From Asticcacaulis tiandongensis (lineage in GTDB: Bacteria > Pseudomonadota > Alphaproteobacteria > Caulobacterales > Caulobacteraceae): a DNA stretch of 64,000 nt. The notes under the pieces are model-generated. The model worked only from the letters and a program-made list of their open reading frames with translations. It was not told the DNA's origin and made no database searches. A program made the position numbers and the translations under genes. This document shows, piece by piece, positions 5,086-62,300 of this stretch; within the stretch, counting starts at the first letter, position 1; the number at the start of each line of letters is the position of its first letter. The stretch lies in NCBI RefSeq assembly GCF_006475605.1, contig NZ_SSBC01000020.1, positions 124,001 to 188,000 on the forward strand, given 5' to 3'.

Positions 5086-5151
5086 ATCTTGAATTAAGTT
5101 ATCTGCCCTAGGGTAAGCCTCTTTTAGAGGTAACGGGCTCAAGTTTCCGAA

Positions 5152-16950: not shown

Positions 16951-17078
16951 TTTCTGCCAATCCTTGAATCAATTGCCCTGTTTATGCCGGTGTAATTGTA
17001 AAATGAATATGCAGAAAATCAGATTTGACGTAATAAATGACGGCAAGTGAGGTGTTGCACGTGAATTTTGTACAAAAC

Positions 17079-17125
17079 GTATCAAATGATACTTTATTCG
17101 TGCGGGCAGGTTTTCCTGCCTTTTT
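17079..17125 (+). terminator. Two hairpins, one terminator-like, with no gene upstream
   Basis: GTATC-aaat-GATAC (17079-17092) is followed by GGCAGG-tttt-CCTGCC (17105-17120) and five Ts (17121-17125) on the plus strand. No plus-strand gene precedes it, so it must end a short leader or small RNA, or act as an attenuator for ilvA, which starts 52 bases later. Confidence 0.5.
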
Positions 17126-17176
17126 GCATTTTAGCTTTGGGGCTTAAGCGCGCCTCTGTTAAGGAAGCGCCTTATT

Positions 17177-42377: not shown

Positions 42378-43529
42378 CTACCTCGCTGGGGCGGCTTTGA
42401 GCGCCGAGGCTATGGCTTCGCGGATCGGCTTAGGGCGGAAATCCGTGTCATAAGGTGTCGGGCGCTGAGGTTTGCCGTCGGCCCGCGGGGCAAAGCCCTG
42501 CAACCAGCTATAGTTATCGACCAGTCCCCAGCACAGCACGGCCTTTAATTGCGGATATGAGAGCATGAAGTCGAGATAGTCCTTGGTCACCGCCGCCTGC
42601 TGGGTATCTCGGTTTTTGATGTCGGCGGGCAGGTCCTTGTCGTTGACATCCAGTTCGGTGATCAGAAGATTATAGCCCATGCCGACGATTTCATCGATAA
42701 AGGCCTTCCATTCCTTGTGCTGGATATTGTCGATGCGCCCGTCATTGCCCAGGTGGCTCTGGACGCCAAAGGCATCGATGGGGACGTTCTCTTTTTTGAA
42801 CTTCTCCAGTAGCTTAAGTACGCCGTAGCGGTGGGTTTCGTTGCCTTTTTCCCAGCCCATATAGTCGTTATAAACCAGTTCCGTGCCCGGCGCATATTCA
42901 CGTGCCGCCTCATAGGCAACACGCAGGGCATCAAAGCCCATAGCCTTGGTGAAGGGCGTGTCGCGTACCAGACCGGTCTGCGGGTCTATGGTTTCATTGA
43001 CGACATCCCACGAATAGATGCGGCCTTTGTAATGCTCGCATACCGTTTCGATATAGTCGCGCAGGAAGCGTTCACATTCGGTGGCAGGGAAGGGGCCGAA
43101 ATCATAGTTCAGTACCCACTGAGGCAGGAAGTCAACACGGTTCCAGAACAGGGTGTGGCCGCGCATCTTCATACCGTTTTCGAGCGCGAAGTTCGTCAGG
43201 CGGTCAGCGGGCTCAAAATCATAGCGATCAGGCTGGGCGGCAATGACGTAAATCTTGTGCTCGTTCTCTGCCACCAACACATTGCATTCAGCTTTAAGCA
43301 GTTCCCGATAGCGGGCATTCTCAAACGTACCGGTGAGTGTGCCCGGTTTGCCTGCCCCGACAGCGGAACCGAACAGCAGGCCTTTTTCCGCCGCCAGATC
43401 TTTCAGCGGCGTGGGCGAAGCCGCAAATGCAGGCAGCGCACATGCAATGGCGCCCGTGGCCGTGATACCGGCAAGGGCCTGTAACGTCTGACGGCGTGAA
43501 AGTAGCCTTGAGGAGTTCATTCGCTTCAC
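42378..43529 (-). CDS. GH10 endo-1,4-beta-xylanase
   Basis: 383 residues with a twin-arginine signal (SRRQTLQALAG at 11-21). The GH10 barrel is complete: acid/base E179 in WDVVNET and nucleophile E292 in LLITELDV, with RGHTLFWN and FGVQSHLG landmarks. It cuts the xylan backbone. First gene of the GH10-GH43 operon; a perfect TAGCGCTA-centred palindrome (43547-43564) sits 18 bases upstream, in the promoter, indicating control by a LacI-type xylose regulator. Confidence 0.95.
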   Translation of the reverse strand: MKRMNSSRLLSRRQTLQALAGITATGAIACALPAFAASPTPLKDLAAEKGLLFGSAVGAGKPGTLTGTFENARYRELLKAECNVLVAENEHKIYVIAAQPDRYDFEPADRLTNFALENGMKMRGHTLFWNRVDFLPQWVLNYDFGPFPATECERFLRDYIETVCEHYKGRIYSWDVVNETIDPQTGLVRDTPFTKAMGFDALRVAYEAAREYAPGTELVYNDYMGWEKGNETHRYGVLKLLEKFKKENVPIDAFGVQSHLGNDGRIDNIQHKEWKAFIDEIVGMGYNLLITELDVNDKDLPADIKNRDTQQAAVTKDYLDFMLSYPQLKAVLCWGLVDNYSWLQGFAPRADGKPQRPTPYDTDFRPKPIREAIASALKAAPAR

Positions 43530-43699: not shown

Positions 43700-46600
43700 T
43701 TAGAATGTACCACGAATAACGAAGGTCACGCGACGGTCGTTTACGAACCATGAGCGACCGGCTGTCAGCAGTTGATTGTTGAGAATTGCCCGGGTGTGGG
43801 TGATCTCGTTGTTCAGGTTAACACCCTGAACCCCAATCTTGATCTGCGGCGTGATATCATAGAAGAGTGAGGCGTCGATCTGACCGCCGCCTTCCTGCAT
43901 GATAGGTTGATAAGGGACGATAACGTCACGTACGGTGATCAGGAAGTCTGAGCGGTAGTTATAGGCCAGACGTGCAGACAACCCGTATTTTTCATAGAAA
44001 ACAGCGAGGTTGGCATTCCGCTTGGACAGGCCCTGCAGCGGCAGCAGCGACGTATCAATTATCGAGACACGACCAGCGGCAACGTCCGGATCGGTTGCGG
44101 AGAGCGTGCTTTGGCTCACGTTAGACGACGAAATATATGAGTAGTTCGCGTTGACGCCCAGTCCGTCAAATGGAGATGGCAGGAAATTGAACGTCTGTTG
44201 GTAAGCCAGTTCGAAACCCTTGATTTTCGCCTTGTCAGGTGAATTCATTGGCTGGCTGATAACGCCTTCGAAGGTTACGCCATTGTTCGTGAGCGGAACC
44301 GTACGCGTATCATTAGTCACGACATTATACAGTTCCTTATGGAACAGGGCCAAAGTCAATGACCCGACAGGTGCGAAGTACCATTCTGCCGAGAGGTCAA
44401 TATTATTTGATGTGGTAGCTGTGAGATTAGGGTTGCCTATCCCTGCGACCACACGTGGTACACCGCCGTTAGCCTGAACGGTTTCACGGGCGTTATCCTG
44501 AAGATCCATCGCATAGTTTTGATAGTTACGAATGACACCCATTTCAGGATAGGTAAGTGTCTTGGACAGCCCCAGACGGAACACCCACTCAGGGCTTGGC
44601 TGAACCTTCAGGTTAAAGCTCGGCAAGAGGTAACGCATGTCGGTTTTTGCCGAAACCGGAATAATAGCACCGTTGGAAAAAGCGCGAACCTGATCACGTA
44701 CTGCAGGGGAAAGGTCATTACAGAATACGCTTTCCGCCCGTGCCGCGGCGCATTGTGCTTCGGTCATCATGGAAGCGAAGGGGAAAGCAATATAGCCATC
44801 CGATTGACGATTGGTCGATGTATAGCGAAGGCCGACATTGCCGGAATAAGTCCAGCCATTATCGGCTTCGTGACGGTACTTGACCATAACGTAAGCGGCT
44901 TTGTTGATCTCGTTGATCGGGTTTATTTCGTTCGCGCGGAACGGCCCGTCAACCACATCACAGCGAAGATCGGCAGGTACCCAGTTTTGCGGTGCCGGTG
45001 TGCCGTCGCCGCAGACAAAATCCGGATGCTGCGGGTCACGCCAGGTGCTGCTGATTGCGGACGCAAAATCACGATAGGTCTGATAATCTGCTACGGCATC
45101 AATTGAAGAATACCAGCGCGGCGTATCCAATGGATGGCTGATTTCACCATTCATGAAATTATCGAAGCCGAACAGGTAGCCATTCGATGATGCGGCCTGA
45201 CCATTGTTGAGGGTTTCATCAAGCCATACAGGACCGGTACCGCCCCAAATTTCTGATACAGCCCCCCAATTATAGCTGGAGAAACGCGTTGTTTGGTCGC
45301 GTTCAGCCCAGCGGGCACCGAATGAAATCGAGGTTATGTAATTATTGGGTTCGAAAATATATTCGCTATCGGCGCGGAAGGAAAGGAGTTCGCCTTCCGA
45401 ACGTTCGAAGTGATCCATGGCCGCCCGCCAGAATGTATTGTACGGGTCGGCATAGGTTGGATGGTCAGGGCCTGCATAAAGACCACACCCATTATCGTTA
45501 TCCCAGTCTCCGTTAGCCGGATCACATGGGGTGCCATTGGGGCTGAGAAGGGTTGGGGTGCGGAAGCGAATATCAGGAATGTCTTTGCCGTTGGTGCGGA
45601 TTTCGACGTCCTGGAAAGATGAAGACCAGAGGCCGTGGTCATCTACAACCACATCAGATTTCACATGCTGAAGGTCGAACTTGAAGCCCCAGCGCTCATT
45701 AGGGGTCCATTGCAGGGCCAGACTCATATCCTGAGTCATGTATTCCTGATTTTGATCGCGGCGCTGGTTATTGGATTGCAGTCCGTAACGTGGCGTACGG
45801 CTGTCGTTACCACCCGCCACATCCGAGCGCCAACCGGTGTAACCACTGATCAGGCCGTTGGTGAAGACGCCGCTTTGATCATATTCAACATCCGTACCGT
45901 AGACGGGGAACGAATCGCCGTTGCTGGTGACATTGTCGGTAGCAATTTCAATTGTGTGTTCGGTCCACGCCTGAGTGGCTTCGGAACGCAGGAACTGGAA
46001 TGTTGCCAGCATCGTATCGTCAGTGGAACGCCACTGAGCAGCCACGCCGTAACCTTCGCGCTTACGCTCAGACGTTTGTGTGCGCATGACGGCGCCACGA
46101 GGGAAATAAACGCCTGCATTCCCGTTGCAGGAAACGCCTGGAGCCGTGACAGGTGTGGCGGGGGCTGTGGGATTGTTCGCGTCGTATGTTAAAATATCAT
46201 CGCGGCAGGAATAGTTGGAAAGCTGGGCACCGTCCGAGCGGGTAGTCAATTCCGAATTGACATAGTTGACCAGCAAACCAAACTCACCAACTTCGGTGTC
46301 CCAACGGTTTGAATAGAGGGCTGAATAGGTGGGCGTCCACTTTTTTGCGAAATCACCATAAGAGCCTTCAGCGGAGAAGGAGAAAACCTGACCGCTTGAG
46401 CCAAACGGGACGCGTGTACGTAGATTGACTGTACCCGCGATACCGCCTTCGATCATGTCGGCAGAAGGATTCTTAAAGACATCTACACCTGCCATAAGTT
46501 CGGACGGTACATCGGCAAAACTCAGTGCGCGACCATTGTTGGCAGAGAAGGAATCGCGACCATTCAGCTCTGAACGGGTAAGATTCAGGCCGCGGACCGT

Positions 46601-46972
46601 GACGCCAGAACCTTCAACAGAGAAGTGGTCGGGGTCAACGCCGGCAGCGAAGCGGTTAATCGATACGCCGGGGATACGTTGAAGCGCTTCGGTAACCGAG
46701 CGGTCGGGCAGGGCACCGATATCTTCAGCCGTAACCGAATCGACGATGACGTCTGAAGTTCTTTTGATGTTTTGCGCGTTCTGTAATGAACGACGGATGC
46801 CGGTAACGACGACCTCTTCGACTTCTTCGGCCGCAGGTGCTGTGTTTTGCGCAAAGGCGGGGGCGGCAAAAGCCGACAAAGCAACGGCCGAAACGCCGCA
46901 AAGCATAGCTGCTGCGGATACATTGCGACCGTATGGGCGCGGCGTGCCGCGCGTACGTTTTGAGTCTCTCAT
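43700..46972 (-). CDS. TonB-dependent outer-membrane receptor (xylan oligosaccharide type)
   Basis: 1090 residues. Signal peptide (ending PAFAQ), a TonB-box-like EEVVVTGIRRSL segment, a plug domain with VTEALQRIPGVSINR and MIEGGIAGTVNLRTRVPF, and a long beta-barrel closing with VTFVIRGTF. This TonB-dependent receptor type with the IRRSL box imports carbohydrates in Caulobacterales and xanthomonads. The start at 46972 has GGGAAG upstream. It stands between the xylanase operon and the halogenase-GH operon; an operator (47001-47012) overlaps its start region. Xylo-oligosaccharide is the inferred ligand. Confidence 0.9.
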   Translation of the reverse strand: MRDSKRTRGTPRPYGRNVSAAAMLCGVSAVALSAFAAPAFAQNTAPAAEEVEEVVVTGIRRSLQNAQNIKRTSDVIVDSVTAEDIGALPDRSVTEALQRIPGVSINRFAAGVDPDHFSVEGSGVTVRGLNLTRSELNGRDSFSANNGRALSFADVPSELMAGVDVFKNPSADMIEGGIAGTVNLRTRVPFGSSGQVFSFSAEGSYGDFAKKWTPTYSALYSNRWDTEVGEFGLLVNYVNSELTTRSDGAQLSNYSCRDDILTYDANNPTAPATPVTAPGVSCNGNAGVYFPRGAVMRTQTSERKREGYGVAAQWRSTDDTMLATFQFLRSEATQAWTEHTIEIATDNVTSNGDSFPVYGTDVEYDQSGVFTNGLISGYTGWRSDVAGGNDSRTPRYGLQSNNQRRDQNQEYMTQDMSLALQWTPNERWGFKFDLQHVKSDVVVDDHGLWSSSFQDVEIRTNGKDIPDIRFRTPTLLSPNGTPCDPANGDWDNDNGCGLYAGPDHPTYADPYNTFWRAAMDHFERSEGELLSFRADSEYIFEPNNYITSISFGARWAERDQTTRFSSYNWGAVSEIWGGTGPVWLDETLNNGQAASSNGYLFGFDNFMNGEISHPLDTPRWYSSIDAVADYQTYRDFASAISSTWRDPQHPDFVCGDGTPAPQNWVPADLRCDVVDGPFRANEINPINEINKAAYVMVKYRHEADNGWTYSGNVGLRYTSTNRQSDGYIAFPFASMMTEAQCAAARAESVFCNDLSPAVRDQVRAFSNGAIIPVSAKTDMRYLLPSFNLKVQPSPEWVFRLGLSKTLTYPEMGVIRNYQNYAMDLQDNARETVQANGGVPRVVAGIGNPNLTATTSNNIDLSAEWYFAPVGSLTLALFHKELYNVVTNDTRTVPLTNNGVTFEGVISQPMNSPDKAKIKGFELAYQQTFNFLPSPFDGLGVNANYSYISSSNVSQSTLSATDPDVAAGRVSIIDTSLLPLQGLSKRNANLAVFYEKYGLSARLAYNYRSDFLITVRDVIVPYQPIMQEGGGQIDASLFYDITPQIKIGVQGVNLNNEITHTRAILNNQLLTAGRSWFVNDRRVTFVIRGTF

Positions 46973-47000
46973 GATGTTCTTCCCTGATTGATGATAGTTT

Positions 47001-47012
47001 GTTAGCGCTATC
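47001..47012. promoter_or_regulatory. XylR-like operator of the TonB receptor gene
   Basis: GTTAGCGCTATC, sharing the TAGCGCTA core of the xylanase operator. On the minus strand TTGACA (47051-47046) and, 17 bases on, TAAAAA (47028-47023) form a promoter whose start would fall a few bases before this site, fitting repression. Confidence 0.65.
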
Positions 47013-47022
47013 ATTCTCGTAT

Positions 47023-47235: not shown

Positions 47236-48780
47236 ATGAAAGTGACTGATTGTAATGATAAAAAAATAAAGCGTGTTCTGATTGTTGGTGGCGGCACATC
47301 GGGATGGATTGCGGCTGCGAGTCTCTCTCATCTTTATAATCACGCGGATTTGAATATTCGTCTGGTGGAATCGCAAGAAATCGCCACGGTGGGCGTGGGT
47401 GAAGCAACTGTGCCACACATCAGATATTTTAACGCACGCCTGGGTCTGGACGAGCGTGAATTCATGAAAAGCACGCAGGCGACCTTCAAATTGGGCAATG
47501 AATTCCGCAACTGGGGCCGCGAAGGTCTGCGCTATGCCCATCCGTTCGGCGCTTTTGGCGAATCTGTGGCTGGTGTCGGCTTTCACCATCACTGGGTCAG
47601 GGCGCATAAAAAAGGGCTGGCGTCCGAGATTGGTGACTATGCCTTGTCGGTACAGATGATGAATAAGGGGCGGTTTGCCTTACCTGACAAAGACCCGCAA
47701 TCGGTTTTATCGACCTTTTCCTATGCCTATCAGTTTGATGCCTATCTCTATGCCGCTTATTTGCGCAAATACAGTGAGGCGCGCGGGGTCGTACGCACCG
47801 AAGGCAAGGTCACCCATGTCGAGCAGCATCCGGAAACCGGCGATGTTACGGCCATTCAGCTGGCCAGCGGTGAGCGCATTGTGGCGGACCTGTTTATTGA
47901 CTGCACGGGCTTTCATGGCCTGCTGATCGAGCAGACACTCAAAACCGGCTACGAGGACTGGAGCCACTGGCTGCCCAATGACCGGGCCTGGGCGGTGAAC
48001 TGTGAAATCCGCGAGGGTCATCTGCCTCTCACGCGCAATACAGCACATAAGGTTGGCTGGCAGTGGCGCATTCCTCTGCAACACCGGCTGGGCAATGGCT
48101 ATGTCCATTCCAGCGCCTTTATAGATGAGCAGGACGCGCTCGATACGCTGATGAATAATCTTGAAGGGCCGACTCTCACTGAGCCGAAGCTTCTGAAATT
48201 CGTCACCGGAAAGCGTAAGAAACAGTGGAATAAGAATGTGGTGGCGATCGGTTTGTCGTCAGGCTTTCTTGAGCCGCTTGAATCGACCTCGATCCACCTT
48301 ATCCATCTGGCGGTGACCAATCTGGTTGAGATGTTCCCCGACAAGGATTTCCGCGACGAAGACCGTGATGAATATAATCGCATCATGAGCATGGAATATA
48401 CGCGGGTACGTGATTTTCTGATCCTGCATTATCACGCCACCGAGCGGACAGATTCCGAGTTTTGGAACTATTGCCGGACGATGGAGATACCTGACGCCCT
48501 GAAATATGAGATGGACCTGTTCCGTCAGCGGGCCGTTGTGGTCAATTACAAGCAAAAATTCTTCCTGGAGCCGAGTTGGTTGTCGGTCTATTTCGGGCAG
48601 GGCGTCATGCCGGACAGCTATGATCCTTTGAGTGAGCGTCTGAACGATGCGGAACTTGAGGCGCTGATGGTGCATACCAAATCACGCATTGATCAGGCGG
48701 TGGACGCCATGCCGTCCAATGGAGCCTTCCTTGAGGCCTATTGCCCGGGATCGGTTACACCGGAAAAGGCGTTGCACTAA
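47236..48780 (+). CDS. Flavin-dependent halogenase family protein (tryptophan halogenase-like), first copy
   Basis: 514 residues. FAD motif GGGTSGW (18-24), the conserved lysine K85 in TFKLGNEF matching the catalytic lysine of PrnA/RebH, and W275-Q-W-R-I-P280, the halogenase signature. So it has the features of an active enzyme using FADH2, halide and oxygen. Start 47236 is preferred (GGGGGCGG just before) over 47173. First gene of a cluster with GH3, GH35-like and GH115. Relatives sit beside TonB receptors in Caulobacterales and xanthomonads; BrvH from Brevundimonas brominates indole in vitro, but the natural substrate is unknown. Confidence 0.88.
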   Translation: MKVTDCNDKKIKRVLIVGGGTSGWIAAASLSHLYNHADLNIRLVESQEIATVGVGEATVPHIRYFNARLGLDEREFMKSTQATFKLGNEFRNWGREGLRYAHPFGAFGESVAGVGFHHHWVRAHKKGLASEIGDYALSVQMMNKGRFALPDKDPQSVLSTFSYAYQFDAYLYAAYLRKYSEARGVVRTEGKVTHVEQHPETGDVTAIQLASGERIVADLFIDCTGFHGLLIEQTLKTGYEDWSHWLPNDRAWAVNCEIREGHLPLTRNTAHKVGWQWRIPLQHRLGNGYVHSSAFIDEQDALDTLMNNLEGPTLTEPKLLKFVTGKRKKQWNKNVVAIGLSSGFLEPLESTSIHLIHLAVTNLVEMFPDKDFRDEDRDEYNRIMSMEYTRVRDFLILHYHATERTDSEFWNYCRTMEIPDALKYEMDLFRQRAVVVNYKQKFFLEPSWLSVYFGQGVMPDSYDPLSERLNDAELEALMVHTKSRIDQAVDAMPSNGAFLEAYCPGSVTPEKALH

Positions 48781-48781
48781 T

Positions 48782-50224
48782 ATGACAGCGCTCAGACACT
48801 TAGTTATTATTGGCGACAGCTATGCGGCATGGATGGCAGCAGCCTTTCTGGGGCATAGCCTGAAGGCGCTGGATGGGCGTCAGTTGACACAGGTCAGTGT
48901 GGTGGCGACGGATGCGCCACAAAGCCGCCGTGCCTTAAGTGCGCCGCCCTCGTTTCGTGCCTTCAATGCGCGCATCGGCCTCAATGAGGCGCAACTGTTC
49001 ACGGCGGCGAAGGCCTTACCGTTTTATGGAAGCCAATACGACGGGTTTGGGGATGGTACTGGTTCGGGGGCGTTCTGGCGCGCCTTTGGTGACTATGGCG
49101 TGCGCCTGAATACAGCCCCCTTCCATCATTTCCTGACCTGGCAGGCGCAGCAGACGGGGATGGTCGATATAGACGACTATGCCCCCGCGGTGAAACTTGC
49201 GGCTTCGGGGCGTTTTACACCGCCCGTGTCGGCGATGGAGTCTCCGCTTTCCGGCGTGGGCCATGGCCTCAATCTTGATACCGCAGCCTACAGGCGCTTG
49301 CTGAAAACGGCCTCTCCTATGGTCAGAGTCATTGAAGGCACGCTGTCTGGTTTTAGCCGTGATGAGCTGGGGAGGGTCAGTGCGATACAGCTTGAGGGCG
49401 GTCAGACGGTCGAGGCGGACTTTTTCATTGATGCTGACGGCTGGCTGACGGAACAACGGAATGTGCCGTTTGTGGCCGCAGTCGGCTTGTCTCATGATCG
49501 GGCTATTGAGGTCGGCGCCCTTCATGCCGATGAACGGGCGGCCAATCATATTACGGCGGTGGACGGCGGCTTTATGCTGCGGCGGCCCGTGGGCGGCGAA
49601 GACCGTATTCGGCTGGTATATGACAGCCGCCAAATAGATACGGATCAGGCGCGAAACCTGTTGGGAGACATGGGTGCCGAAGCCGAAATCGAAACCTTTG
49701 TACAGGGCCGCCGCACCGCCTTCTGGCAGGATAATGTGCTGAGCATCGGTGAGGCCTCAGGGGTACTGGACGGCATTGGCCTGCATGAACTGATGTTTGT
49801 TCAGCACGAACTGACGCAGTTTCTGGCGCTGTTTCCCGATCAGGAAAGTCGGCCGGAACTGGCGCGCGAATATAACCGTGTCCTGACCCAGAGCTTTGAC
49901 CGTACGGCTGATTTTGCGCGGCTGCATTATGCGGAATCAGGCTGGTCAGAAAGCGTGCGGCAAAAGGTCAGCTATTTCCGAAGTCGCGGTTACATTCAGA
50001 TGCTGGACGACGAAACGGCCAGTGAAGCCGACTTCCTTTCACTTTTGTGGGGGCGGGGCATCCGGCCTGAGCGTTATGACCGCACGATTGATGCGCTCGA
50101 CAAGGCTTTGACGCTGAAAAGACTTGAACAGATGCGCAATATCATCAACCATGAAATCAATCGCCTGCCATCCTTTGCCGTACTCCGGCAGCAGATAGAG
50201 CAGGCGGCGTCAGGGCGGGCCTGA
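48782..50224 (+). CDS. Degenerate halogenase-family protein
   Basis: 480 residues, clearly of the same family (ARIGLNEAQLF, SIGEASGVLDGIGLHELMFVQHEL) but altered at key sites: the FAD motif is GDSYAAW instead of GGGxxGW, the Trp-x-Trp-x-Ile-Pro motif is absent, and the catalytic lysine region reads AKALPFYGSQ. It probably does not halogenate; it may be a partner subunit, a different flavoprotein or a decaying copy. Starts one base after the first halogenase stop (TAATATG), so tightly coupled. Confidence 0.8.
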   Translation: MTALRHLVIIGDSYAAWMAAAFLGHSLKALDGRQLTQVSVVATDAPQSRRALSAPPSFRAFNARIGLNEAQLFTAAKALPFYGSQYDGFGDGTGSGAFWRAFGDYGVRLNTAPFHHFLTWQAQQTGMVDIDDYAPAVKLAASGRFTPPVSAMESPLSGVGHGLNLDTAAYRRLLKTASPMVRVIEGTLSGFSRDELGRVSAIQLEGGQTVEADFFIDADGWLTEQRNVPFVAAVGLSHDRAIEVGALHADERAANHITAVDGGFMLRRPVGGEDRIRLVYDSRQIDTDQARNLLGDMGAEAEIETFVQGRRTAFWQDNVLSIGEASGVLDGIGLHELMFVQHELTQFLALFPDQESRPELAREYNRVLTQSFDRTADFARLHYAESGWSESVRQKVSYFRSRGYIQMLDDETASEADFLSLLWGRGIRPERYDRTIDALDKALTLKRLEQMRNIINHEINRLPSFAVLRQQIEQAASGRA

Positions 50225-50273
50225 ACCGCCGTGACGTTATTTAAATATACAGAGGAAGCAGGAGCGTAGGTTT

Positions 50274-51818
50274 ATGCGTGAGAACCGGATTCAGTCGATC
50301 ATCATTATCGGTGGCGGCACGGCGGGGTGGATGACGGCAGCGGCCTTGTCCAAGATTCTGGGTAAGGACTATGCCGACATAAGGCTGGTCGAATCCGAAC
50401 AAATCGCTACGGTGGGCGTCGGCGAAGCGACCATTCCGCAGTTGAATGTTTTCAACCGGCTTCTGGGGTTGGATGAGAACGACTTTGTCCGTCAGACTAA
50501 TGGCTCATTTAAGCTCGGTATCGAGTTTGTTGACTGGGCGCGTAAGGGCGATCGCTATTTCCATCCTTTTGGTCCGTATGGCGTTGATATGCGCGGCGTA
50601 TCATTCCATGCCTACTGGCAAAAGCTTCAGACCCTTGGGGTGGTGGATTCAATTTCCGACTATAACCTGATGTCGGTCGCTGCACGCGAAAATCGCTTCA
50701 TGCGCGCGGATCGTTCGGCGAAAAATTCACCCATCGCCAATATTTCCTATGCCTTTCACTTTGACGCCAGCCTCTATGCCAAATTCCTTCGGCGGTTTTC
50801 CGAAGCACATGGCGTCACCCGCGTCGAAGGCAAAGTCGTTGATGTCGAACAGAATCCGGAAAACGGTTTTGTCACCGCCATTAAGCTTGAGAATGGTGAG
50901 CGCCTTGAGGCTGAACTGTTTATCGACTGCTCAGGCTTCCGGGGCGTGTTGATCGAGCAGGTGCTGAAAACCGGTTATAATGACTGGTCGAAATATCTGC
51001 CTAATAACCGTGCCTGGGCGACGCAGTGCGAATATCACCGTGATGAAAACGGCAAGACCGTCGGTTTTACACCTTTCACACGGGCAACAGCGCGTGAGGC
51101 GGGCTGGCAATGGCGTATTCCGCTTCAGCACCGTATCGGCACGGGCTATGTGTTCTCGAATAATTTTGTCGATGAAGAAAAGGCGCGTGACACACTCCTT
51201 CAGAATCTGGACGGCAAATATATTCAGGAACCCCACCTGATTAAATTTGTCGGTGGTCATCGCAAGAAGTTCTGGAACAAAAATGTTGTGGCGATCGGTC
51301 TGGCGGCGGGCTTTATGGAGCCTCTGGAATCGACCTCGATCTTCCTGATCCAGAGCGGTATCGCCAAGCTTCTGCAACTGTTCCCCGATAAGGATTTTGA
51401 ACCGGCGGACCGTGACCGCTTCAATACCTTAAGCACCAACGAATATGAATATATCCGCGATTTTCTTGTGCTGCATTTCAATGCCACGGAACGCGATGAC
51501 ACGCCCTATTGGGACTATTGCCGTAATATTCCGCTGCCTGACCGGCTTAAGGAAAAATACGAAGTATTCCAAAGCCGCGGGCGTATTTTCCGCGAAGACC
51601 TTGAACTGTTCAATGACACAAGCTGGTTTGCCGTCATGACCGGTCAGAGAATGCAGTCACGAAGCTATGATCCGGTCGTTGAGATGTTGACGGATGAGGA
51701 ACTGAAGGCCAGACTGCATGACATCAAGGACGTCATCTATCGATCGTCACAGGTCATGCCCAGTCAGGCTGAGTTTATTAAACGCCACTGTGCTTCACCA
51801 GAGTTCGTACACGGCTGA
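50274..51818 (+). CDS. Flavin-dependent halogenase family protein, third copy
   Basis: 514 residues, the same length as the first copy and very similar to it: GGGTAGW (13-19), K80 in SFKLGIEF and the W-Q-W-R-I-P motif near 280, so all halogenase hallmarks are intact. The gap from the degenerate copy is 49 bases. It is followed by a hairpin and T run (51835-51867) and then GH3. The two intact copies probably arose by duplication within this locus and may differ in substrate. Confidence 0.88.
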   Translation: MRENRIQSIIIIGGGTAGWMTAAALSKILGKDYADIRLVESEQIATVGVGEATIPQLNVFNRLLGLDENDFVRQTNGSFKLGIEFVDWARKGDRYFHPFGPYGVDMRGVSFHAYWQKLQTLGVVDSISDYNLMSVAARENRFMRADRSAKNSPIANISYAFHFDASLYAKFLRRFSEAHGVTRVEGKVVDVEQNPENGFVTAIKLENGERLEAELFIDCSGFRGVLIEQVLKTGYNDWSKYLPNNRAWATQCEYHRDENGKTVGFTPFTRATAREAGWQWRIPLQHRIGTGYVFSNNFVDEEKARDTLLQNLDGKYIQEPHLIKFVGGHRKKFWNKNVVAIGLAAGFMEPLESTSIFLIQSGIAKLLQLFPDKDFEPADRDRFNTLSTNEYEYIRDFLVLHFNATERDDTPYWDYCRNIPLPDRLKEKYEVFQSRGRIFREDLELFNDTSWFAVMTGQRMQSRSYDPVVEMLTDEELKARLHDIKDVIYRSSQVMPSQAEFIKRHCASPEFVHG

Positions 51819-51834
51819 GTTCGCCGTTGAGATA

Positions 51835-51867
51835 CCGCTCCGCCGCAGACGGAGCGGGACGCTTTTT
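51835..51867 (+). terminator. Attenuating terminator between third halogenase and GH3
   Basis: CCGCTCCG (51835-51842) pairs with CGGAGCGG (51850-51857), followed five bases later by TTTTT (51863-51867). It may end or reduce read-through of the halogenase part of the operon. Confidence 0.5.
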
Positions 51868-51908
51868 GAATAACAACCAGAAAAAAACCACTACAAGGGA
51901 AGTATGAA

Positions 51909-54305
51909 ATGACCCAAGCTACGACAACCGTTACGCGCCGAGGTTTCACTGCAAATGTTAGCGCTACCGCTCTGTTTTTAGGCGTCGCCGGATCGGCCTC
52001 AGCCCAGGGCAAACCGCTCTATAAGGACGCCAGCGCTTCGGTTGAGGCGCGCACCAACGACCTTCTGGGGCGCATGACCTTAGAGGAAAAAGTCGCCCAG
52101 ATGCAGTGTATCTGGCTCGAAAAGGGCAAGATCAACAACCCCAAAGGCGATTTTGACCCGAAAAAAGCGTCTGCGGAATTCCCCAATGGCCTCGGTATGA
52201 TTGCCCGCCCAAGCGACAAGCGCGGCATGAGCGAGGGTAATGAAAATGCCGGTGCTGACGCCGAGGTCGTCAACCGTACCGCCTTTGAAACGGCGACCTA
52301 TATCAATGCGGCGCAAAAGTGGGCCGTTGAAAAAACCCGTCTGGGCATCCCGATGTTTATGCACGAAGAATCCCTGCACGGCTATGTGGCACGCGATGCG
52401 ACCTCATTCCCGCAGGCCATTGCCATGGCCTCGGCCTTTGATCCGCAAATGGTCGAAGACATCTATGCCGTCTGCGCCAAGGAAATGCGGGCGCGTGGGG
52501 CCAATCTGGCTCTGACGCCGGTGGTTGATGTCTGCCGTGAGCCGCGCTGGGGCCGCGTTGAAGAAACCTTTGGTGAGGACACCTATCTGATGGGCGTTCT
52601 GGGTGTGGCCTCGGTCAAGGGCTTCTCAGGTACTGAGCGTAAGCTGGCACCTGATAAGGTGTTTGCGACCCTGAAGCACATGACCGGTCACGGTCAGCCG
52701 GAAAACGGCACCAATGTCGGGCCAGCGCAGATTTCCGAGCGCGTCCTGCGCGAAGTCTATTTCCCGCCGTTTGAAAAGATCGTCAACGAAACGCCTATCG
52801 CGGCCATCATGCCGTCCTATAACGAAATCGATGGTGTGCCATCACACGCCAACCGCTGGCTGCTGACGAAGATCCTGCGTGAGGAGTGGGGCTTTAAGGG
52901 GCTGACGGTTTCCGACTATTTCGCCATCAAGGAACTCATCAGCCGTCACCAGTTGACGCCGAACCTCAAGGAAGCCGCCTTCCGAGCGCTTAAGGCCGGT
53001 GTTGATATCGAAACCCCGGACGGTGAAGCCTATCCGCATCTGGTGGAACTGGTCAACGAAGGCCGCATCAGCATCGCCGAGATTGACACCGTTGTGCGCC
53101 GTATTCTCGAATGGAAGTTCCTGTCGGGTATGTTCGAGGCCCCTTATGTTGATGCGAAGAAAGCCGATAGCCTGACGGCAACACCTGAGGCGGTGAAACT
53201 GGCACATGACTCGGCCCTCAAGTCGGTCGTGCTCCTGAAAAACAACGGCATGTTGCCGCTGGATGGCAAGACCGTCGGCAAGGTGCTGTTGCTCGGTACA
53301 CACGCCAAGGACACGCCGATCGGTGGCTATTCCGACATTCCGCGTCACGTGGTGTCGATCTATGAGGGCCTTGAGCGCGAAGCCAAACAACAGGGCTTCA
53401 CGCTCGAATACCGCGAAGCTGTGCGCATCACCGAAAAACGCGACTGGGCGGCCGATGAGGTGCATTTCGTCGATCCGGCGGTCAATCGTCGCCTGATTGC
53501 CGAAGCGGTTGAGTCGGCGAAAACCGCCGACACCATCATCATGGTTCTGGGGGACAATGAGCAAACCTCACGTGAGGCCTGGGCCGACAACCATCTGGGG
53601 GATCGTGACTCGCTTGATATGGTTGGTGAGCAGAACGAACTGGCCGAAGCCATTTTCGCACTGAAAAAACCAACCACTGTGTTCCTGCTCAATGGCCGAC
53701 CCTTGTCGATCAACCTGTTGCAGGAAAAGGCCGACGCGATTGTCGAAGGCTGGTACCTCGGGCAACAGACCGGTTTTGCCGCCGCCGACATCCTGTTTGG
53801 CCGTTACAATCCGGGCGGTAAACTGCCGATCAGCTTTGCGCGCAATACGGGCCAGTTGCCGGTATTTTATAATCACAAACCTACGGCACGACGCGGCTAT
53901 CTCGGGGGCGACACCTCGCCGCTCTATCCGTTCGGGTTCGGCCTCAGCTATACGACCTTCGATATTTCCGAGCCGCGTCTGTCGAAATCAACCATCGCTA
54001 CCAATGAGACGGTAACGGTTCTGGTCGATGTCAAAAACACCGGTTCACGCAAGGGTGATGAGGTGGTGCAGCTTTATATCCGCGATGACTTTGCCTCCGT
54101 CACCCGTCCGGTGAAGGAACTGAAGGGTTTTAAGCGCGTCACGCTTGAGCCGGGTGAAACCAAGACGGTTGAGTTGAAAATCGGCCCTGCGGAGCTTGAG
54201 TTCTTCGACACCAGCATGACCCGTGTCGTCGAAGCCGGTACCTTCACCATCAGCGTTGGCCCTAACAGTGTGGACCTCAAGAACGTCACCCTGACGGTGG
54301 CGTAA
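51909..54305 (+). CDS. GH3 beta-xylosidase/beta-glucosidase, exported
   Basis: 798 residues. The N-terminus (TRRGFTANVSATALFLGVAGSASA) looks like a twin-arginine signal. GH3 barrel with KHMTGHGQPENG, nucleophile D336 in LTVSDY (Tyr replaces the more common Trp), second alpha/beta domain with ILFGRYNPGGKLPISF, and a C-terminal fibronectin-like domain (about 690-798). It removes terminal xylose or glucose from oligosaccharides. A TAGCGCTA-type operator lies inside its signal-peptide codons (51956-51968). Its TAA is immediately followed by the next ATG. Confidence 0.93.
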   Translation: MTQATTTVTRRGFTANVSATALFLGVAGSASAQGKPLYKDASASVEARTNDLLGRMTLEEKVAQMQCIWLEKGKINNPKGDFDPKKASAEFPNGLGMIARPSDKRGMSEGNENAGADAEVVNRTAFETATYINAAQKWAVEKTRLGIPMFMHEESLHGYVARDATSFPQAIAMASAFDPQMVEDIYAVCAKEMRARGANLALTPVVDVCREPRWGRVEETFGEDTYLMGVLGVASVKGFSGTERKLAPDKVFATLKHMTGHGQPENGTNVGPAQISERVLREVYFPPFEKIVNETPIAAIMPSYNEIDGVPSHANRWLLTKILREEWGFKGLTVSDYFAIKELISRHQLTPNLKEAAFRALKAGVDIETPDGEAYPHLVELVNEGRISIAEIDTVVRRILEWKFLSGMFEAPYVDAKKADSLTATPEAVKLAHDSALKSVVLLKNNGMLPLDGKTVGKVLLLGTHAKDTPIGGYSDIPRHVVSIYEGLEREAKQQGFTLEYREAVRITEKRDWAADEVHFVDPAVNRRLIAEAVESAKTADTIIMVLGDNEQTSREAWADNHLGDRDSLDMVGEQNELAEAIFALKKPTTVFLLNGRPLSINLLQEKADAIVEGWYLGQQTGFAAADILFGRYNPGGKLPISFARNTGQLPVFYNHKPTARRGYLGGDTSPLYPFGFGLSYTTFDISEPRLSKSTIATNETVTVLVDVKNTGSRKGDEVVQLYIRDDFASVTRPVKELKGFKRVTLEPGETKTVELKIGPAELEFFDTSMTRVVEAGTFTISVGPNSVDLKNVTLTVA
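51956..51968. promoter_or_regulatory. XylR-like operator inside the GH3 gene
   Basis: TGTTAGCGCTACC, the closest of the three sites here to the Caulobacter xylose operator. It lies 47 bases into the GH3 reading frame, where it codes for part of the signal peptide. It could act as a transcription roadblock or mark an internal promoter. Confidence 0.45.
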
Positions 54306-55925
54306 ATGAAGTCGCTGATCAGCGTTCTGACCCTGAGCTTCGCCCTTGCGGGCGGGGCTCAGGCCGCCGCCCCGTACCTGAAAACACAGGGAACGACCCA
54401 GCAACTGATCGTCGATGATCAGCCGTTTCTGATCCTTGGGGGGGAACTGGGCAATTCGACCGGTTCCTACCTGCCTAATCTGGCGAAACAGTGGGAGACA
54501 TTGAAAGCTGGCGGCCTGAATACGGTGCTGATCCCCCTGACTTGGGAGCAGCTTGAGCCGGAAGAGGGGCGTTTTGACTTCACCCTGACGGACGGCATTA
54601 TCCGTCAGGCGCAGGCAAATGATATGCGCGTGGTCTTTCTGTGGTTTGGGGCTTGGAAAAACTCCATGTCCACCTATGTGCCCGCATGGGTGAAGCACGA
54701 CCCGAAACGCTTTTCCCGTGCCCGCAACGGTGACGGTCAGGCGCAGGATATTTTAAGTGCGCATGATCCCGATACGCTTGAGGCGGATCGCAAGGCCTTT
54801 GCCGTCCTGATGGCGCATCTGGCGAAAAATGACCCTGACCACACGGTGATCATGGTTCAGGTGCAGAACGAGATTGGTATGCTGCCGTCGGCCCGCGACC
54901 ACAGCCGTGAGGCGGAAGCCGCGTGGAAAGGGCCCGTGCCTGCCGCGCTGACGGCTTATCTGACAAAGAACCGCGCCCGTCTGCATCCGCAGATGAAGGC
55001 CCTGTGGGACGCCAATGGCGCGAAAGCCAAAGGCACATGGGCCGAGGTATTTGGCACGTCCGATGCGGCGCAGGAGGTGTTTCAGGCCTGGGGCTATGCG
55101 CAATATGTCGAGACGCAGGCCAGATCGGGTAAGGCCGCGCATAATATCCCGTTATTCGTCAATGCCGCGCTTAATCAGGCCGGAAAAAAGTCGGGCGAAT
55201 ATCCGTCCGCCGGGCCATTACCGCATCTGTTTGATGTCTGGAAAGCTGGTGCGCCGACCATTGATATTCTGGCGATTGATATTTACTGGCCGGATTTTGT
55301 GCACTGGGTGCAGCAGTTCAAACGCCATGACAATACCCTGTTCATTCCTGAATCGAACCGTGCCGAACGGGCCGAGGCGGGGGCTGAAGCCTTCTATGCG
55401 TTTGGTGAACTGGATACGATCGGGGTCTCTCCGTTTGCGATAGAAAACCTGCCGCGTGACGGGCGCTTAAGTGAGGCCTATGGCCTGCTGAAAAACCTGT
55501 CACCACTCATTGCCGCCCATCAGGGCAAAGGCACCATGCGGGGCCTGATTGCGCCTGTGGATGGTGAGGGCAAGGTCGATACGACACCTCAGTTCTTTGA
55601 GTTGGGTGGCTATCGCTTTAAGGCGGTATTTGTCGATCCGTGGACGCCTAAGGATCAGCAGAAACATGCGACCCACGGCGCGCTGATTATCCATACGGCT
55701 AAGGATGAGTTTATCGTCGCGGGCTCAGGGGTCACTCTGACCTTCGAAGACCCGAAAGGCCATGACCGGATTGCCATTGACCGGATAATCGAAGCCGAGT
55801 TCATTGACCGGCAATGGCAGGACGGGCGCTGGCTCAATGGTGACGAGAGTCATCAGGGGCGGCATCTGCGCCTGCCCCCCAGTCATTTCGGCGCACAACG
55901 CCTGAACCTCTACAGGTACAGATAG
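54306..55925 (+). CDS. GH35-like glycosidase with DUF5597 domain, exported
   Basis: 539 residues with a signal peptide ending GGAQAAA. A beta/alpha barrel of clan A (GH35/GH42 type): LIPLTWEQLEPEEGRFDF, likely acid/base E189 in VQVQNEIG, likely nucleophile E349 in FIPESN, and a C-terminal DUF5597-type domain (about 395-539). Such proteins are usually called beta-galactosidase-like but occur in xylan and xyloglucan loci. It abuts GH3 with no gap. Likely removes a galactosyl or other side sugar; the substrate is inferred. Confidence 0.82.
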   Translation: MKSLISVLTLSFALAGGAQAAAPYLKTQGTTQQLIVDDQPFLILGGELGNSTGSYLPNLAKQWETLKAGGLNTVLIPLTWEQLEPEEGRFDFTLTDGIIRQAQANDMRVVFLWFGAWKNSMSTYVPAWVKHDPKRFSRARNGDGQAQDILSAHDPDTLEADRKAFAVLMAHLAKNDPDHTVIMVQVQNEIGMLPSARDHSREAEAAWKGPVPAALTAYLTKNRARLHPQMKALWDANGAKAKGTWAEVFGTSDAAQEVFQAWGYAQYVETQARSGKAAHNIPLFVNAALNQAGKKSGEYPSAGPLPHLFDVWKAGAPTIDILAIDIYWPDFVHWVQQFKRHDNTLFIPESNRAERAEAGAEAFYAFGELDTIGVSPFAIENLPRDGRLSEAYGLLKNLSPLIAAHQGKGTMRGLIAPVDGEGKVDTTPQFFELGGYRFKAVFVDPWTPKDQQKHATHGALIIHTAKDEFIVAGSGVTLTFEDPKGHDRIAIDRIIEAEFIDRQWQDGRWLNGDESHQGRHLRLPPSHFGAQRLNLYRYR

Positions 55926-55928
55926 CCC

Positions 55929-56951
55929 ATGGTAAAACCGGTACGCGTTTATGAGAACGTCACCAAAGAACAGTTTGAGGCGGAGATCATCCCCTCAAAC
56001 CGTCCGGCGGTGCTCAAGGGTCTGGTGGTGGACTGGCCGGTGGTCAGACTGGCGCAAACCTCACCTGAGGCCCTTTGCAACTATCTTAAGCAGCATGATA
56101 CTGGTAAACCGGCGCAGGCTTTGACGCTTGAGGCGCAGCACAGAGGGAAATTCTATTATACGCCGGATTTTGCAGGGCTTAATTTTCAGAAAATTCCGAC
56201 AACCTTAAGCGCCTCACTTGACTGGCTGTTGCAACATCAGGGGCAGTCACCCCGCGAAGGGGAATGCGCTGCCCATGTACTTCAGGCCCTGATCGCGCAC
56301 GAATATTGCCCGCCGTTTGTTAATGAAAACCGGGTCGGTTTGCTTGATCCGCGTCTGGGGCCGCGCTTCTGGATCGGTAATGCCGCCCGTACCCAGACCC
56401 ATTACGATATTATGGACAATATCGCCTGTAATGTGTCGGGTGAGCGCACCTTTACGCTGTTTCCACCTGAGCAATTGCCTAATCTTTATCCGGGGTCGTT
56501 TGATCTGACGCCTAATGGCACGCCCATAAGTTTGCCGGATGTTATCGCGCCGGAACTGGGTAAATATCCGAAATTTGCCGACGCTTTAGAAACTGCGGAA
56601 CAGGCAGTGCTTGAGCCGGGCGATGCCATCTATATCCCCTATTTCTGGTGGCATGACGTGCAGGCGCGGGGGGCGTTCAATATGCTGGTCAACTATTGGT
56701 GGCGTCCGGGACGCCCTGATCTCATGCCGCCCTATCCGGCATTTTACATGGCCCTTGCGGCTTTTGCCCATATGACACCCGAAATGCGCGCAGGCTGGAA
56801 AGAGATGTTTGACCATTTCATTTTCCGCGTGAACGGCGAACCGTTTGCCCACCTGCCCGAAGCGCAGCGAGGCATGTTTGGCCCCATGCCCCCTGAGCGT
56901 ATGGGCAGCCTGAAAAATTTCATTCTCAGCATGCTGAGGCCCAATAAATAA
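55929..56951 (+). CDS. Cupin-like (JmjC type, Cupin_8) protein
   Basis: 340 residues, no signal peptide, so cytoplasmic. The metal site is likely H-x-D in THYDIMDN (about 156-163) with a distal histidine in WWHDVQA, the pattern of iron/2-oxoglutarate hydroxylases such as FIH-like JmjC enzymes. NRPAVLKGLVVDWP at the start is also typical. Proteins of this type often accompany the halogenase/TonB receptor loci. Three bases after the GH35-like gene. The hydroxylation target is unknown. Confidence 0.85.
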   Translation: MVKPVRVYENVTKEQFEAEIIPSNRPAVLKGLVVDWPVVRLAQTSPEALCNYLKQHDTGKPAQALTLEAQHRGKFYYTPDFAGLNFQKIPTTLSASLDWLLQHQGQSPREGECAAHVLQALIAHEYCPPFVNENRVGLLDPRLGPRFWIGNAARTQTHYDIMDNIACNVSGERTFTLFPPEQLPNLYPGSFDLTPNGTPISLPDVIAPELGKYPKFADALETAEQAVLEPGDAIYIPYFWWHDVQARGAFNMLVNYWWRPGRPDLMPPYPAFYMALAAFAHMTPEMRAGWKEMFDHFIFRVNGEPFAHLPEAQRGMFGPMPPERMGSLKNFILSMLRPNK

Positions 56952-56970: not shown

Positions 56971-59580
56971 ATGCGACTTAAGATGATTGCCGCATTACTG
57001 GCCGCTACCGCTCTTACACCTTTATCAGTACTGGCCTGTGATACGCCGGTAAGTGTCTGTGACCGTGACACAGGGGCGGCTTTTGCACTGATACGCAACG
57101 CCACTCCCGTCAGCATCTATGTTGACGCCACGGATGATCCGGCGGTTTTGCATGTGGCCGGAAACTTCGCCAAGGACCTTGAGCGGGTATCGGGCAAACC
57201 GGCGACGGTGGTACATGACCTTAAAAACGCCAAAGGGCAGGTGGTGATCATCGGATCGCTGGGGCACAATTCTGTTGTTGACGGGCTTGTGGCCTCGGGT
57301 GCGGTGCGGGCCGACGACCTCAGCGGCCAATGGGAAGCCTATCGTCAGGTGGTGGTCGATAAGCCGTTTGCGGGTATTGATCGGGCCTTGGTGATTGTTG
57401 GCTCCGACCGGCGCGGGGCGGTGTTCGGCACCTATGATATTTCCGCGAAAATCGGTGTGTCGCCCTGGTACTGGTGGGCGGATGTGCCGGTCGAGCGTCG
57501 CCGGTCGGTCTATATCACCGCTGGTGAGCGTCAGGATCAGCCCAAGGTGAAATACCGTGGCCTGTTTATCAATGATGAGGAACCGGCCTTTGGCAACTGG
57601 GCGCGGGAAAAGTTCGGCGGCATCAATGCCGATATGTATGAGAACGTTTTTGAGCTGAATCTGCGGCTTAAAGGCAATTTCCTGTGGCCTGCCATGTGGG
57701 GCAAGGCGTTTAACGACGATGACCCGCGTAACTATAAACTGGCTGATGAGATGGGGATCGTCGTCAGCACGTCTCACCACGAACCCATGATGCGGGCGCA
57801 GGACGAATGGCACCGCAATAAAGATCAGGGCGTGACCGGCGGGGCGTGGAACTATGTCACCAATGGCGAAAACCTGCGCAAATTCTGGCGCGGCGGCATT
57901 GAGCGCATGACCAAAACGGACGGGACGATATACGACAGTCTGGTGACTTTGGGGATGCGTGGTGATGGTGATGAGCCCATGACCGAGGGGACGGCGACCG
58001 AGTTGCTTGAGACCATCGTGGCCGATCAGCGCAAGATCATAGCCGATGTCACCGGACGCGCGCCCGAAGCCACACCGCAGGTATGGGCGCTGTATAAGGA
58101 GGTGCAGGACTATTACGATCACGGCATGCAGGTGCCTGATGACGTGTTGCTGCTGTTTGCTGATGACAACTGGGGCCAGATCAGGCGGTTGCCAACCAAA
58201 GACTTCGACCGTAAGGGTGGTTATGGCGTCTATTATCATTTCGACTATGTCGGCGGGCCGCGTAACTATAAGTGGATTGACACCATCCAGATTGAAAAGA
58301 CCTGGCAGCAGATGGATCTGGCCTATGTCAGTGGCGCCCGCGACCTGTGGGTGGTCAATGTCGGTGATATCAAACCGGCTGAAATCCCGCTGTCGTTTTT
58401 CCTCGATATGGCATGGAACCCTGAGGCCATGACACCGGAAGCGTTGGCACATTGGTCTGCGCAATGGGCGGCGCAACAGTTCGGCGTTACGCATTCTGAG
58501 GCTATCGCCGATCTCATGACCCGTTATGCGACGATTTCGTCGCGCCGTAAGCCTGAACTGGTGGATGCTGATACGTTCAGTGTGGGCACACTCGAAGACC
58601 TCAAGGCTGGTCGCGGCGAGTGGCAGGAGCGTGTAGCCGAATTGAAAGCGCTTGAGGCCGATGCCGAAGCCATTGGCGCGAAACTGCGCCCTGATCAGCA
58701 GGATGCCTTTTTCCATCTGGTGAGCCACCGGATCATCGCCCTGTCGAACCTGTATCAGCTTTATGAGGCGGTGGCCATGAACCGCGCCCTGCATGGATGG
58801 GGCTATGCCGATGCCAATAAATGGGCCGATCGGGCAGAGGCCCTGTTCAAAAATGATGAGGCTATATCCGCGCGTTATCATGCGATGAATGGCGGCAAGT
58901 GGAACCATATGATGTCACAGACGCGTATTGGTTACACCTACTGGCAGCAGCCTGAAACGCAGGTCATGCCAAAGGTTGAACGGAATGCATATTCTAAAGC
59001 CGCACCGGCTTTTAAGGTCACGCCCGAGCCGTTTAAACCGGACATTCGGGCGGGCGATGAATTTGGTGAGAAAAACGAAGTCGTCTCCATCGAGGCACCG
59101 AATTTTAAACGGTCGATAAAACGATCTGACGTGGGTTGGGCGGTTATCCCCCATCTGGGCCGGACACTGGGGGCAGTAGTATCCCTGCCGCAGGATGCCC
59201 CTTCGACGACACCGGAAGATAATGTCCGGCTTGAATATGACATCCGCCTGATCAAAGATGCCGATACGGAACTGCATGTCTATCTGGTGCCGACGCTTGA
59301 TACGCGCGGGCAGGGGGGGCTTAGGTTCGGTGTGTCCATTGATGACGGGCCGGTGCAGATTCTGAGTTTTGACCTCATCCCCGATAAGCCTGACTGGGAA
59401 AAGGCGGTCAGCGACAATGCCCATGTTATCAAGGTGCCGTTCAAGGGGCTCAGGGCTGGCGATCACACAATCAAGATATGGCGCATCGATGCCAATGTGG
59501 TCATCCAGAAGCTTGTGCTGGATACAGGCGGCCTGAAGCCGTCCTATCTGGGGCCGCCCCAAAGCCATCCGGTCAACTGA
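56971..59580 (+). CDS. GH115 xylan alpha-1,2-glucuronidase
   Basis: 869 residues with a signal peptide (ALLAATALTPLSVLA). GH115 layout: N-terminal small domain (about 30-180), a barrel with SPWYWWADVPVERR, YRGLFINDEEPAFGNWA, LRLKGNFLWPAMW and HHEPMMRAQDEW, a helical region (about 520-670), and a C-terminal beta-sandwich (about 690-869). It removes (4-O-methyl)glucuronic acid side chains from xylan. Last gene of the plus-strand xylan operon. Its presence identifies the substrate as glucuronoxylan. Confidence 0.94.
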   Translation: MRLKMIAALLAATALTPLSVLACDTPVSVCDRDTGAAFALIRNATPVSIYVDATDDPAVLHVAGNFAKDLERVSGKPATVVHDLKNAKGQVVIIGSLGHNSVVDGLVASGAVRADDLSGQWEAYRQVVVDKPFAGIDRALVIVGSDRRGAVFGTYDISAKIGVSPWYWWADVPVERRRSVYITAGERQDQPKVKYRGLFINDEEPAFGNWAREKFGGINADMYENVFELNLRLKGNFLWPAMWGKAFNDDDPRNYKLADEMGIVVSTSHHEPMMRAQDEWHRNKDQGVTGGAWNYVTNGENLRKFWRGGIERMTKTDGTIYDSLVTLGMRGDGDEPMTEGTATELLETIVADQRKIIADVTGRAPEATPQVWALYKEVQDYYDHGMQVPDDVLLLFADDNWGQIRRLPTKDFDRKGGYGVYYHFDYVGGPRNYKWIDTIQIEKTWQQMDLAYVSGARDLWVVNVGDIKPAEIPLSFFLDMAWNPEAMTPEALAHWSAQWAAQQFGVTHSEAIADLMTRYATISSRRKPELVDADTFSVGTLEDLKAGRGEWQERVAELKALEADAEAIGAKLRPDQQDAFFHLVSHRIIALSNLYQLYEAVAMNRALHGWGYADANKWADRAEALFKNDEAISARYHAMNGGKWNHMMSQTRIGYTYWQQPETQVMPKVERNAYSKAAPAFKVTPEPFKPDIRAGDEFGEKNEVVSIEAPNFKRSIKRSDVGWAVIPHLGRTLGAVVSLPQDAPSTTPEDNVRLEYDIRLIKDADTELHVYLVPTLDTRGQGGLRFGVSIDDGPVQILSFDLIPDKPDWEKAVSDNAHVIKVPFKGLRAGDHTIKIWRIDANVVIQKLVLDTGGLKPSYLGPPQSHPVN

Positions 59581-62122: not shown

Positions 62123-62300
62123 AGGCGCTTTGGCGGGCGATTCGGCTTTGACCTTTGCAGGCGTTCCCCCTAACTTCGCTTCCTCTGTTTCGGGGCTTTA
62201 GTCCCGAACTGGCCGCAGGGGATTGGCGGCCTTAAGCGAAATCAGTGTGGCTTGGATTGAGGTGCGGCTTTTGACAGACGGGCAAACAGTTTCACAATAT

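Follow-up and report, generated by a model that had tools for sequence, protein, structure and literature searches.

Paired intact and degenerate flavin-dependent halogenases accompany one clade of TonB-dependent receptors in Asticcacaulis and other Proteobacteria

Introduction

For the flavin-dependent halogenases of the BrvH and Xcc type, passages of the papers that describe them state that the native substrate is unknown (PMC5945002; PMC7336383), and the open site ascribed to Xcc4156 might take peptides (a passage of PMC7336383). The BrvH gene adjoins a second halogenase gene at 42.7% identity (a passage of PMC5945002), a tandem arrangement also seen at the locus described here. This locus lies in a stretch of 64,000 nucleotides of Asticcacaulis tiandongensis DNA (contig NZ_SSBC01000020.1, positions 124,001 to 188,000; hereafter the window), where three halogenase genes of family PF04820 and a Cupin_8 gene stand among genes for xylan degradation, opposite a TonB-dependent receptor gene (Table 1). 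The first halogenase, A (P0001), and the third (P0003) are intact; the second, B (P0002), is degenerate. In these and other genomes B is found directly behind A, and the pair accompanies one clade of receptors through several kinds of glycoside hydrolase (GH) loci. We propose, giving the idea an even chance, that A and B form an obligate, heteromeric halogenase in which B would be the non-catalytic partner.

Several described systems share part of this arrangement. The lanthipeptide halogenase MibH (5UAO) is likewise a PF04820-type enzyme and, according to a passage of PMC8269204, acts on a peptide; it differs in that P0001 matches it at only 179 bits and in that no genes for ribosomally synthesized and post-translationally modified peptides were recognized among the proteins scanned here. 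A non-catalytic paralog paired with an active copy, as here, is described for the S-adenosylmethionine decarboxylase (AdoMetDC) prozyme of trypanosomes (PMC5201418) and for deoxyhypusine synthase (PMC3663545), where the dead copy activates its partner. These are other enzymes, for which a complex is reported, whereas the evidence at the present loci is gene pairing. Carbohydrate utilization (CUT) loci, as a passage of PMC1790865 describes them, combine a TonB receptor with xylan enzymes, as does the window; the word halogenase has no occurrence in that CUT-locus text, whereas the window locus has three such genes.

The linkage to receptors is a feature of the loci studied here, the term TonB being absent from PMC5945002, PMC8269204 and PMC7336383, and passages of the same three papers make no mention of an inactive halogenase paralog. 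In the open-access full-text literature no paper was found that combines tryptophan halogenase, TonB-dependent and cupin, or halogenase, TonB-dependent receptor and glycoside hydrolase. The two matches for tryptophan halogenase with xylan in the open-access literature were unrelated by title, and among the entries listed in further searches none named an inactive halogenase paralog in its title or the opening of its abstract.

The Halogenase Pair

By its sequence P0001 is a BrvH/Xcc4156-type flavin-dependent halogenase. Its best matches among PDB chains, 6y1w (494 bits), 9luq (494 bits) and 6frl (487 bits), are not tryptophan halogenases, and its motifs are the same as those of BrvH (6FRL) and Xcc4156 (6Y1W), group C flavin-dependent halogenases. 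P0001 and P0003 keep every motif sought, namely GxGxxG, the lysine of FKLG, WxWxIP and EPLEST with the catalytic glutamate. Where active copies have these motifs, P0002 carries GDSYAAW, PFYGSQY, GFMLRRP and VLDGIGLH; it retains none of the five features scored, which places it outside the flavin halogenases as defined by motif. P0002 is halogenase-like in sequence despite the loss of motifs, its structure model reaches a predicted local distance difference test score (pLDDT) of 86.5, and a Pfam scan found no added domain.

The pair was followed through 80 loci that contain the closest named relatives of P0001, picked by similarity to A and not at random, and through further loci from the same genome, the genus and the order. 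Clade A was defined by the common ancestor of the 41 halogenases adjacent to B, and the gene directly upstream of B is a member of it at 41 of 41 loci. Among 126 distinct places, A occurs with B in 41, A alone in two and B alone in none. The two A-only proteins (L094 and L107) are 99.6% identical to each other, lack a B neighbor and have phenylalanine for tryptophan in WxWxIP. In five genomes the halogenases were listed in full: of 27 places read there, six have both genes and none has one alone. In the window a single base separates the stop codon of A from the ATG of B, and in 38/41 loci the two frames either overlap or leave a gap of no more than 8 bases. A near-unique change marks clade A, in that glycine replaces a conserved acidic residue near the C-terminus in 95% of A proteins and 0% of other active copies; P0001 itself has K462 at this position.

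The A. tiandongensis genome has a second pair of intact and degenerate halogenases, at L020, beside a receptor and a GH20 gene. At loci orthologous to the window locus, A-B is joined by one further halogenase in G008 and by two in G004 and G012. The orthologous xylan locus of G002 (L218), with a receptor 70% identical, has two other halogenases, neither of them A nor B.

The 126 places are what is left of 129 loci once one empty record and two duplicates are excluded. Four short fragments were also dropped from the sequence comparison. Halogenase frames of 380-900 residues were used (430-650 in the latest loci), which leaves out L167, and receptors of at least 700 or 800 residues, depending on the analysis. 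Motif counts exclude the cut fragment L164. The B frame of L134 continues upstream and was counted as B with A upstream. The maximum-likelihood tree was made from 64 sequences, a subset of 111.

One frame of 1036 residues, adjoining a TonB receptor in L167 (7396-10506, minus strand), joins two active halogenases and is a hint that tandem halogenase copies act together. This two-domain frame is real, but both of its copies are active. The long frames of L228, L229 and L231-L233 were rejected as fusions, each having a single halogenase domain.

The Degenerate Paralog as a Protein Family

Motif scores fall into two groups. No B protein retains more than three of the five features: 19 of the 41 have none, 14 have one, seven two and one three. 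Among the other halogenases, 222 distinct sequences, all five features are present in 219 and four in the remaining three. Those three (L172, L094 and L107) belong to clade A. GxGxxG is kept in 17/41 B, and the B protein of L132 keeps both the lysine and the glutamate positions. All 41 B proteins form a clade with no other member (support 1.0), as do 15/15 in the 64-sequence maximum-likelihood tree, with an ultrafast bootstrap (UFBoot) of 100. Because long branches can attract one another in trees, held-out profiles were built, and the B profile beat a matched active profile in 28/28 B tested; this test is somewhat favored by the permissive B profile, and residues specific to B nonetheless exist.

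The B clade spans Alpha- and Gammaproteobacteria and diverges faster than A, with a median identity of 0.29 against 0.53 at 30 loci. The ratio of nonsynonymous to synonymous substitution (dN/dS) was 0.18-0.36 in 17 pairs of more than 50% identity drawn from 10 proteins; the window B has no relative near enough for this measurement. Paralogy, loss of catalytic residues and purifying selection, which together define a dead paralog, are all found in B, selection having been measured on 10 of the 41 and the window copy excluded. Judged from its sequences, the degenerate gene is not in simple decay.

Linkage to TonB-Dependent Receptors

The A. tiandongensis genome has nine PF04820 genes in five loci, and eight of the nine have a TIGR01782-class TonB-dependent receptor no more than 4 kb away; one halogenase-linked receptor of this class is cut by a contig end. 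Across four genomes of the same genus, 40/49 PF04820 genes are within 5 kb of such a receptor, whereas for random positions and a distance of 6 kb the share is about 9-13%; 26 of 101 receptors are halogenase-linked. In the same four genomes 11/16 Cupin_8 genes have a halogenase at 5 kb or less, and both Cupin_8 genes of A. tiandongensis are inside halogenase loci. The steady partners of the halogenases are thus the receptor and the cupin, and much less GH115, of which 3/10 genes in four genomes have a halogenase at 7 kb or less. A tree of 145 receptors shows nine changes of the linked state, against a mean of 44 after shuffling.

All 41 B-bearing loci have a receptor or pieces of one. The receptor profile finds 37 in full; that of L132 was found in full by Pfam and missed by the profile, and L078, L139 and L170 have pieces. 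The 37 B-adjacent receptors, eight further linked and two unlinked ones form one subclade of 47 records, which stand for 46 genes, since L173, read from an overlapping stretch, repeats the gene of L172. The two unlinked members are in the A. tiandongensis genome (L017, 2005-5340, minus strand; L026, 3954-7340, plus strand), with no halogenase in the stretch read; frame 604-2247 of L026 looks resolvase-like by eye.

Cargo Contexts

The earlier note had suggested a survey for conserved linkage with GH115. Linkage to xylan genes is there: xylan GHs are near 14 of 22 B-bearing loci and one of 58 others among the 80 (Fisher test, 2.8e-9). The orthologous receptors of G004, G008 and G012 stand in loci with a halogenase trio or quartet and GH10/GH43. 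The particular tie to GH115 held in part, since GH3, cupin and GH115 follow the halogenases in G008 and G012 (the G004 contig ends at the halogenases), and was weak in the genus-wide count given above. Xylan specificity of A-B, for which the 80-locus count spoke, was removed by other contexts: the pair also stands with GH20 (L020), GH18 and GH20 (L170), PI-PLC-C1 (L221), GH9 and GH1 (L080) and a fucosidase (L070). No glycosidase was found among the proteins scanned in L126 and L137 (three and one, respectively).

The idea that the target is an aromatic of the imported xylan found no support in these comparisons, since the halogenases follow the receptor class, Cupin_8 follows the halogenases, and A-B occurs in non-xylan loci. 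A xylan aromatic is an unlikely substrate because A-B accompanies its receptors through several cargo contexts.

Further genes were noted near these loci. In L221 (15285-16394, minus strand; similar start in L163 at 5585) an A-B trio is accompanied by cupins, DUF6445 and a gene for PI-PLC-C1. DUF6445 (PF20043) occurs near halogenase-receptor loci at 3270-3935 in L221 and 11045-11971 in L230, and may also belong to the module. In L126 a GMC oxidoreductase and a protein that combines FGE-sulfatase, DinB_2 and methyltransferase domains (5037-6764 and 15623-17719, plus strand) flank an A-B-bearing receptor.

Interpretation and Alternatives

Under the proposed mechanism A and B would be an obligate pair, B being an ancient non-catalytic paralog that is probably co-translated with A. 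Enzyme A would generate the halogenating species from FADH2, O2 and halide, and may brominate in vivo. B is most likely a subunit, with A, of a heteromeric enzyme, where it would hold, position or gate the substrate; the third halogenase and the Cupin_8 oxygenase would be companions that vary among loci. Because A-B tracks one TonB receptor clade across differing cargoes, the substrate more probably belongs to the receptor module. A protein or peptide that bears an aromatic side chain, perhaps the receptor, is envisaged rather than the imported glycan. Taken singly, a receptor tryptophan and an aromatic of the cargo each seem very unlikely as the substrate.

A number of observations weigh against this proposal. 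The complex itself is put forward from gene pairing and sequence data. The exact node of clade A has a support of 0.26, the next node, with 40 of the 41 plus two others, having 0.903; in the 64-sequence tree clade A has a UFBoot of 84, and an unfinished maximum-likelihood run grouped 22/24. Most of the places were retrieved through similarity to A or B or through receptor linkage, and joint loss of A and B can be explained as a single deletion of neighbors. The A protein of L172 (15339-16886, minus strand) has lysine for the catalytic glutamate despite the presence of B, and the B genes of L078 and L128 are fragmented. Correlations of distances fail to single out A-B (0.80), as A-receptor gave 0.82, A-third halogenase 0.84 and B-receptor 0.59. 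Across 90 halogenase-linked receptors, compared with 55 unlinked ones, no tryptophan column reaches 70%.

One alternative is that B works independently of A; it could, for instance, be a regulator that binds flavin or a ligand and acts on the receptor operon. The B proteins that keep GxGxxG suggest that some may bind FAD, and B evolves faster than A; yet B is never found without a clade A gene directly in front of it, and P0002 has no added domain, so that independence appears rather unlikely. That the B genes are decaying duplicates retained by chance would fit the high divergence of B and the copies in pieces, and is very unlikely given that B forms a single clade spanning Alpha- and Gammaproteobacteria, that its frame in the window is open, that the dN/dS values are low and that B-specific residues are shared.

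Two other readings concern the chemistry. If the substrate of the halogenases and the cupin were an aromatic that imported glucuronoxylan releases or carries as an ester, the GH10/GH43/GH115 neighborhood of the B-bearing loci would be accounted for, as would a GDSL esterase of unknown substrate at the orthologous loci of G002 and G008; BrvH and the Xcc enzymes use small indoles in vitro, according to passages of PMC5945002 and PMC7336383. This is a long shot, however, given the other cargoes, the preference of the halogenases of the genus for the receptor class, and the finding that none of the window locus proteins scanned has a Pfam match to a feruloyl esterase. A stand-alone device for chemical defense or redox chemistry, producing hypohalous acid or a halogenated small molecule and co-regulated with nutrient uptake, is similarly improbable. 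Flavin halogenases make hypohalous acid (PMC11021962), and the two flanking proteins of L126 would suit such a role, but the linkage recurs with one receptor clade, and no other biosynthetic genes were recognized among the proteins scanned, which are part of each locus.

Aromatic Residues of the Receptor

Under the preferred reading of A-B as a heteromeric enzyme with a target in the receptor module, conserved aromatic residues of the receptor are of interest. A universal tryptophan or tyrosine target was ruled out by column conservation in the 90 linked and 55 unlinked receptors; no tyrosine column is clearly specific to the linked ones, and a tyrosine/phenylalanine column at 180 is at 0.88 in linked and 0.27 in unlinked receptors. 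W583 and W590 are present in 100% of the 37 B-adjacent receptors and in all 47 records of the subclade, including the unlinked L017 and L026, and elsewhere in 5/58 other halogenase-linked receptors and 0/53 unlinked receptors outside the clade. As the B-adjacent receptors all lie in one subclade, which has many invariant non-aromatic columns too, ancestry or ligand binding accounts for the conservation of the pair equally well.

In the model of receptor P0005 (mean pLDDT 77.6), both tryptophans are in the longest loop, 579-696, between strands 560-578 and 697-716. This loop is probably extracellular, judging from the alternation of short turns and long loops in the model, and for W583 and W590 ligand binding is no less likely a role than modification. 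The specific idea that A-B is a heteromeric protein halogenase installing bromotryptophan in its own TonB receptor before export, with W583 and W590 as candidate sites, is accordingly offered as a speculation with little probability.

Layout of the Window Locus

The span 47236-56951, to which the earlier note had drawn attention, has the layout given there: two intact halogenase genes and one degenerate relative in line with GH3, GH35 and a cupin, divergent from the receptor, with GH115 just beyond the span. Reading frames and families match throughout (Table 1). Position 47236 is an in-frame alternative ATG of P0001, and the frame of P0002 in the list of open reading frames begins at TTG 48689, the ATG at 48782 being used here. 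With GH10 and GH43 on the far side of the receptor, the window has, by sequence family, a complete glucuronoxylan locus; TonB receptor, GH10, GH43, GH3 and GH115 are found together as in CUT loci for xylan. P0004 has the iron triad H158-x-D160 and H242 in a Cupin_8 domain, as expected of JmjC Fe(II)/2-oxoglutarate (2OG) enzymes. It resembles the JmjC/Cupin_8 2OG oxygenases FIH, JMJD5 and C2orf60 (best match 3al5, 56 bits), from which it differs in that the best-scoring stretch is limited to residues 154-259.

The ATG of the GH35-family gene is contiguous with the GH3 stop codon (54305/54306). A hairpin in the gap between the third halogenase and GH3 was rejected as a conserved terminator, no such site being found at this position in three orthologous loci; its fold z-score is -1.2, and the terminator scan of the window found seven sites against 5.1 expected. 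From these weak statistics and the lack of conservation, a single operon is therefore likely. A separate open reading frame at 62223-63182 (plus strand, 319 residues) has no Pfam or NCBIfam match.

Table 1. Features of the halogenase-receptor locus, in coordinates of the window
Feature	Position	Strand	Remarks
CBM_4_9-like protein	40098-40658	-	24.9 bits, under Pfam's cut-off (25.9)
GH43 with beta-xylosidase C-terminal domain	40677-42374	-	far side of receptor
GH10 xylanase-family protein	42378-43529	-	far side of receptor
TonB-dependent receptor P0005, TIGR01782 class	43700-47014	-	723 bits; divergent from halogenases
Halogenase A, P0001	47173-48780	+	PF04820, 632 bits; catalytic motifs intact; clade A
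Non-catalytic halogenase paralog B (by motif), P0002	48782-50224	+	PF04820, 195 bits, counted from ATG
Third halogenase, P0003	50274-51818	+	PF04820, 624 bits; motifs intact; outside clade A
Terminator-like hairpin, halogenase 3/GH3 gap	51835-51857	+	weak; without conservation
GH3 glycosidase, beta-xylosidase-like	51909-54305	+	scores under curated NCBIfam cut-offs
GH35-family protein with DUF5597	54306-55925	+	NCBIfam GH35_fam, 695 bits
Cupin_8/JmjC-type Fe(II)/2OG oxygenase-like P0004	55929-56951	+	192 bits; HxD...H present
GH115 alpha-glucuronidase-family protein	56971-59580	+	outside the span of the earlier note

Implications

If B is an obligate partner of clade A, members of this clade that are assayed alone would be incomplete enzymes. 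The linkage to receptors narrows the space in which the substrate of these halogenases is to be sought. Should the improbable case of bromotryptophan in the receptor prove true, nutrient receptors would be tuned by halide, through a kind of modification new to outer-membrane proteins.

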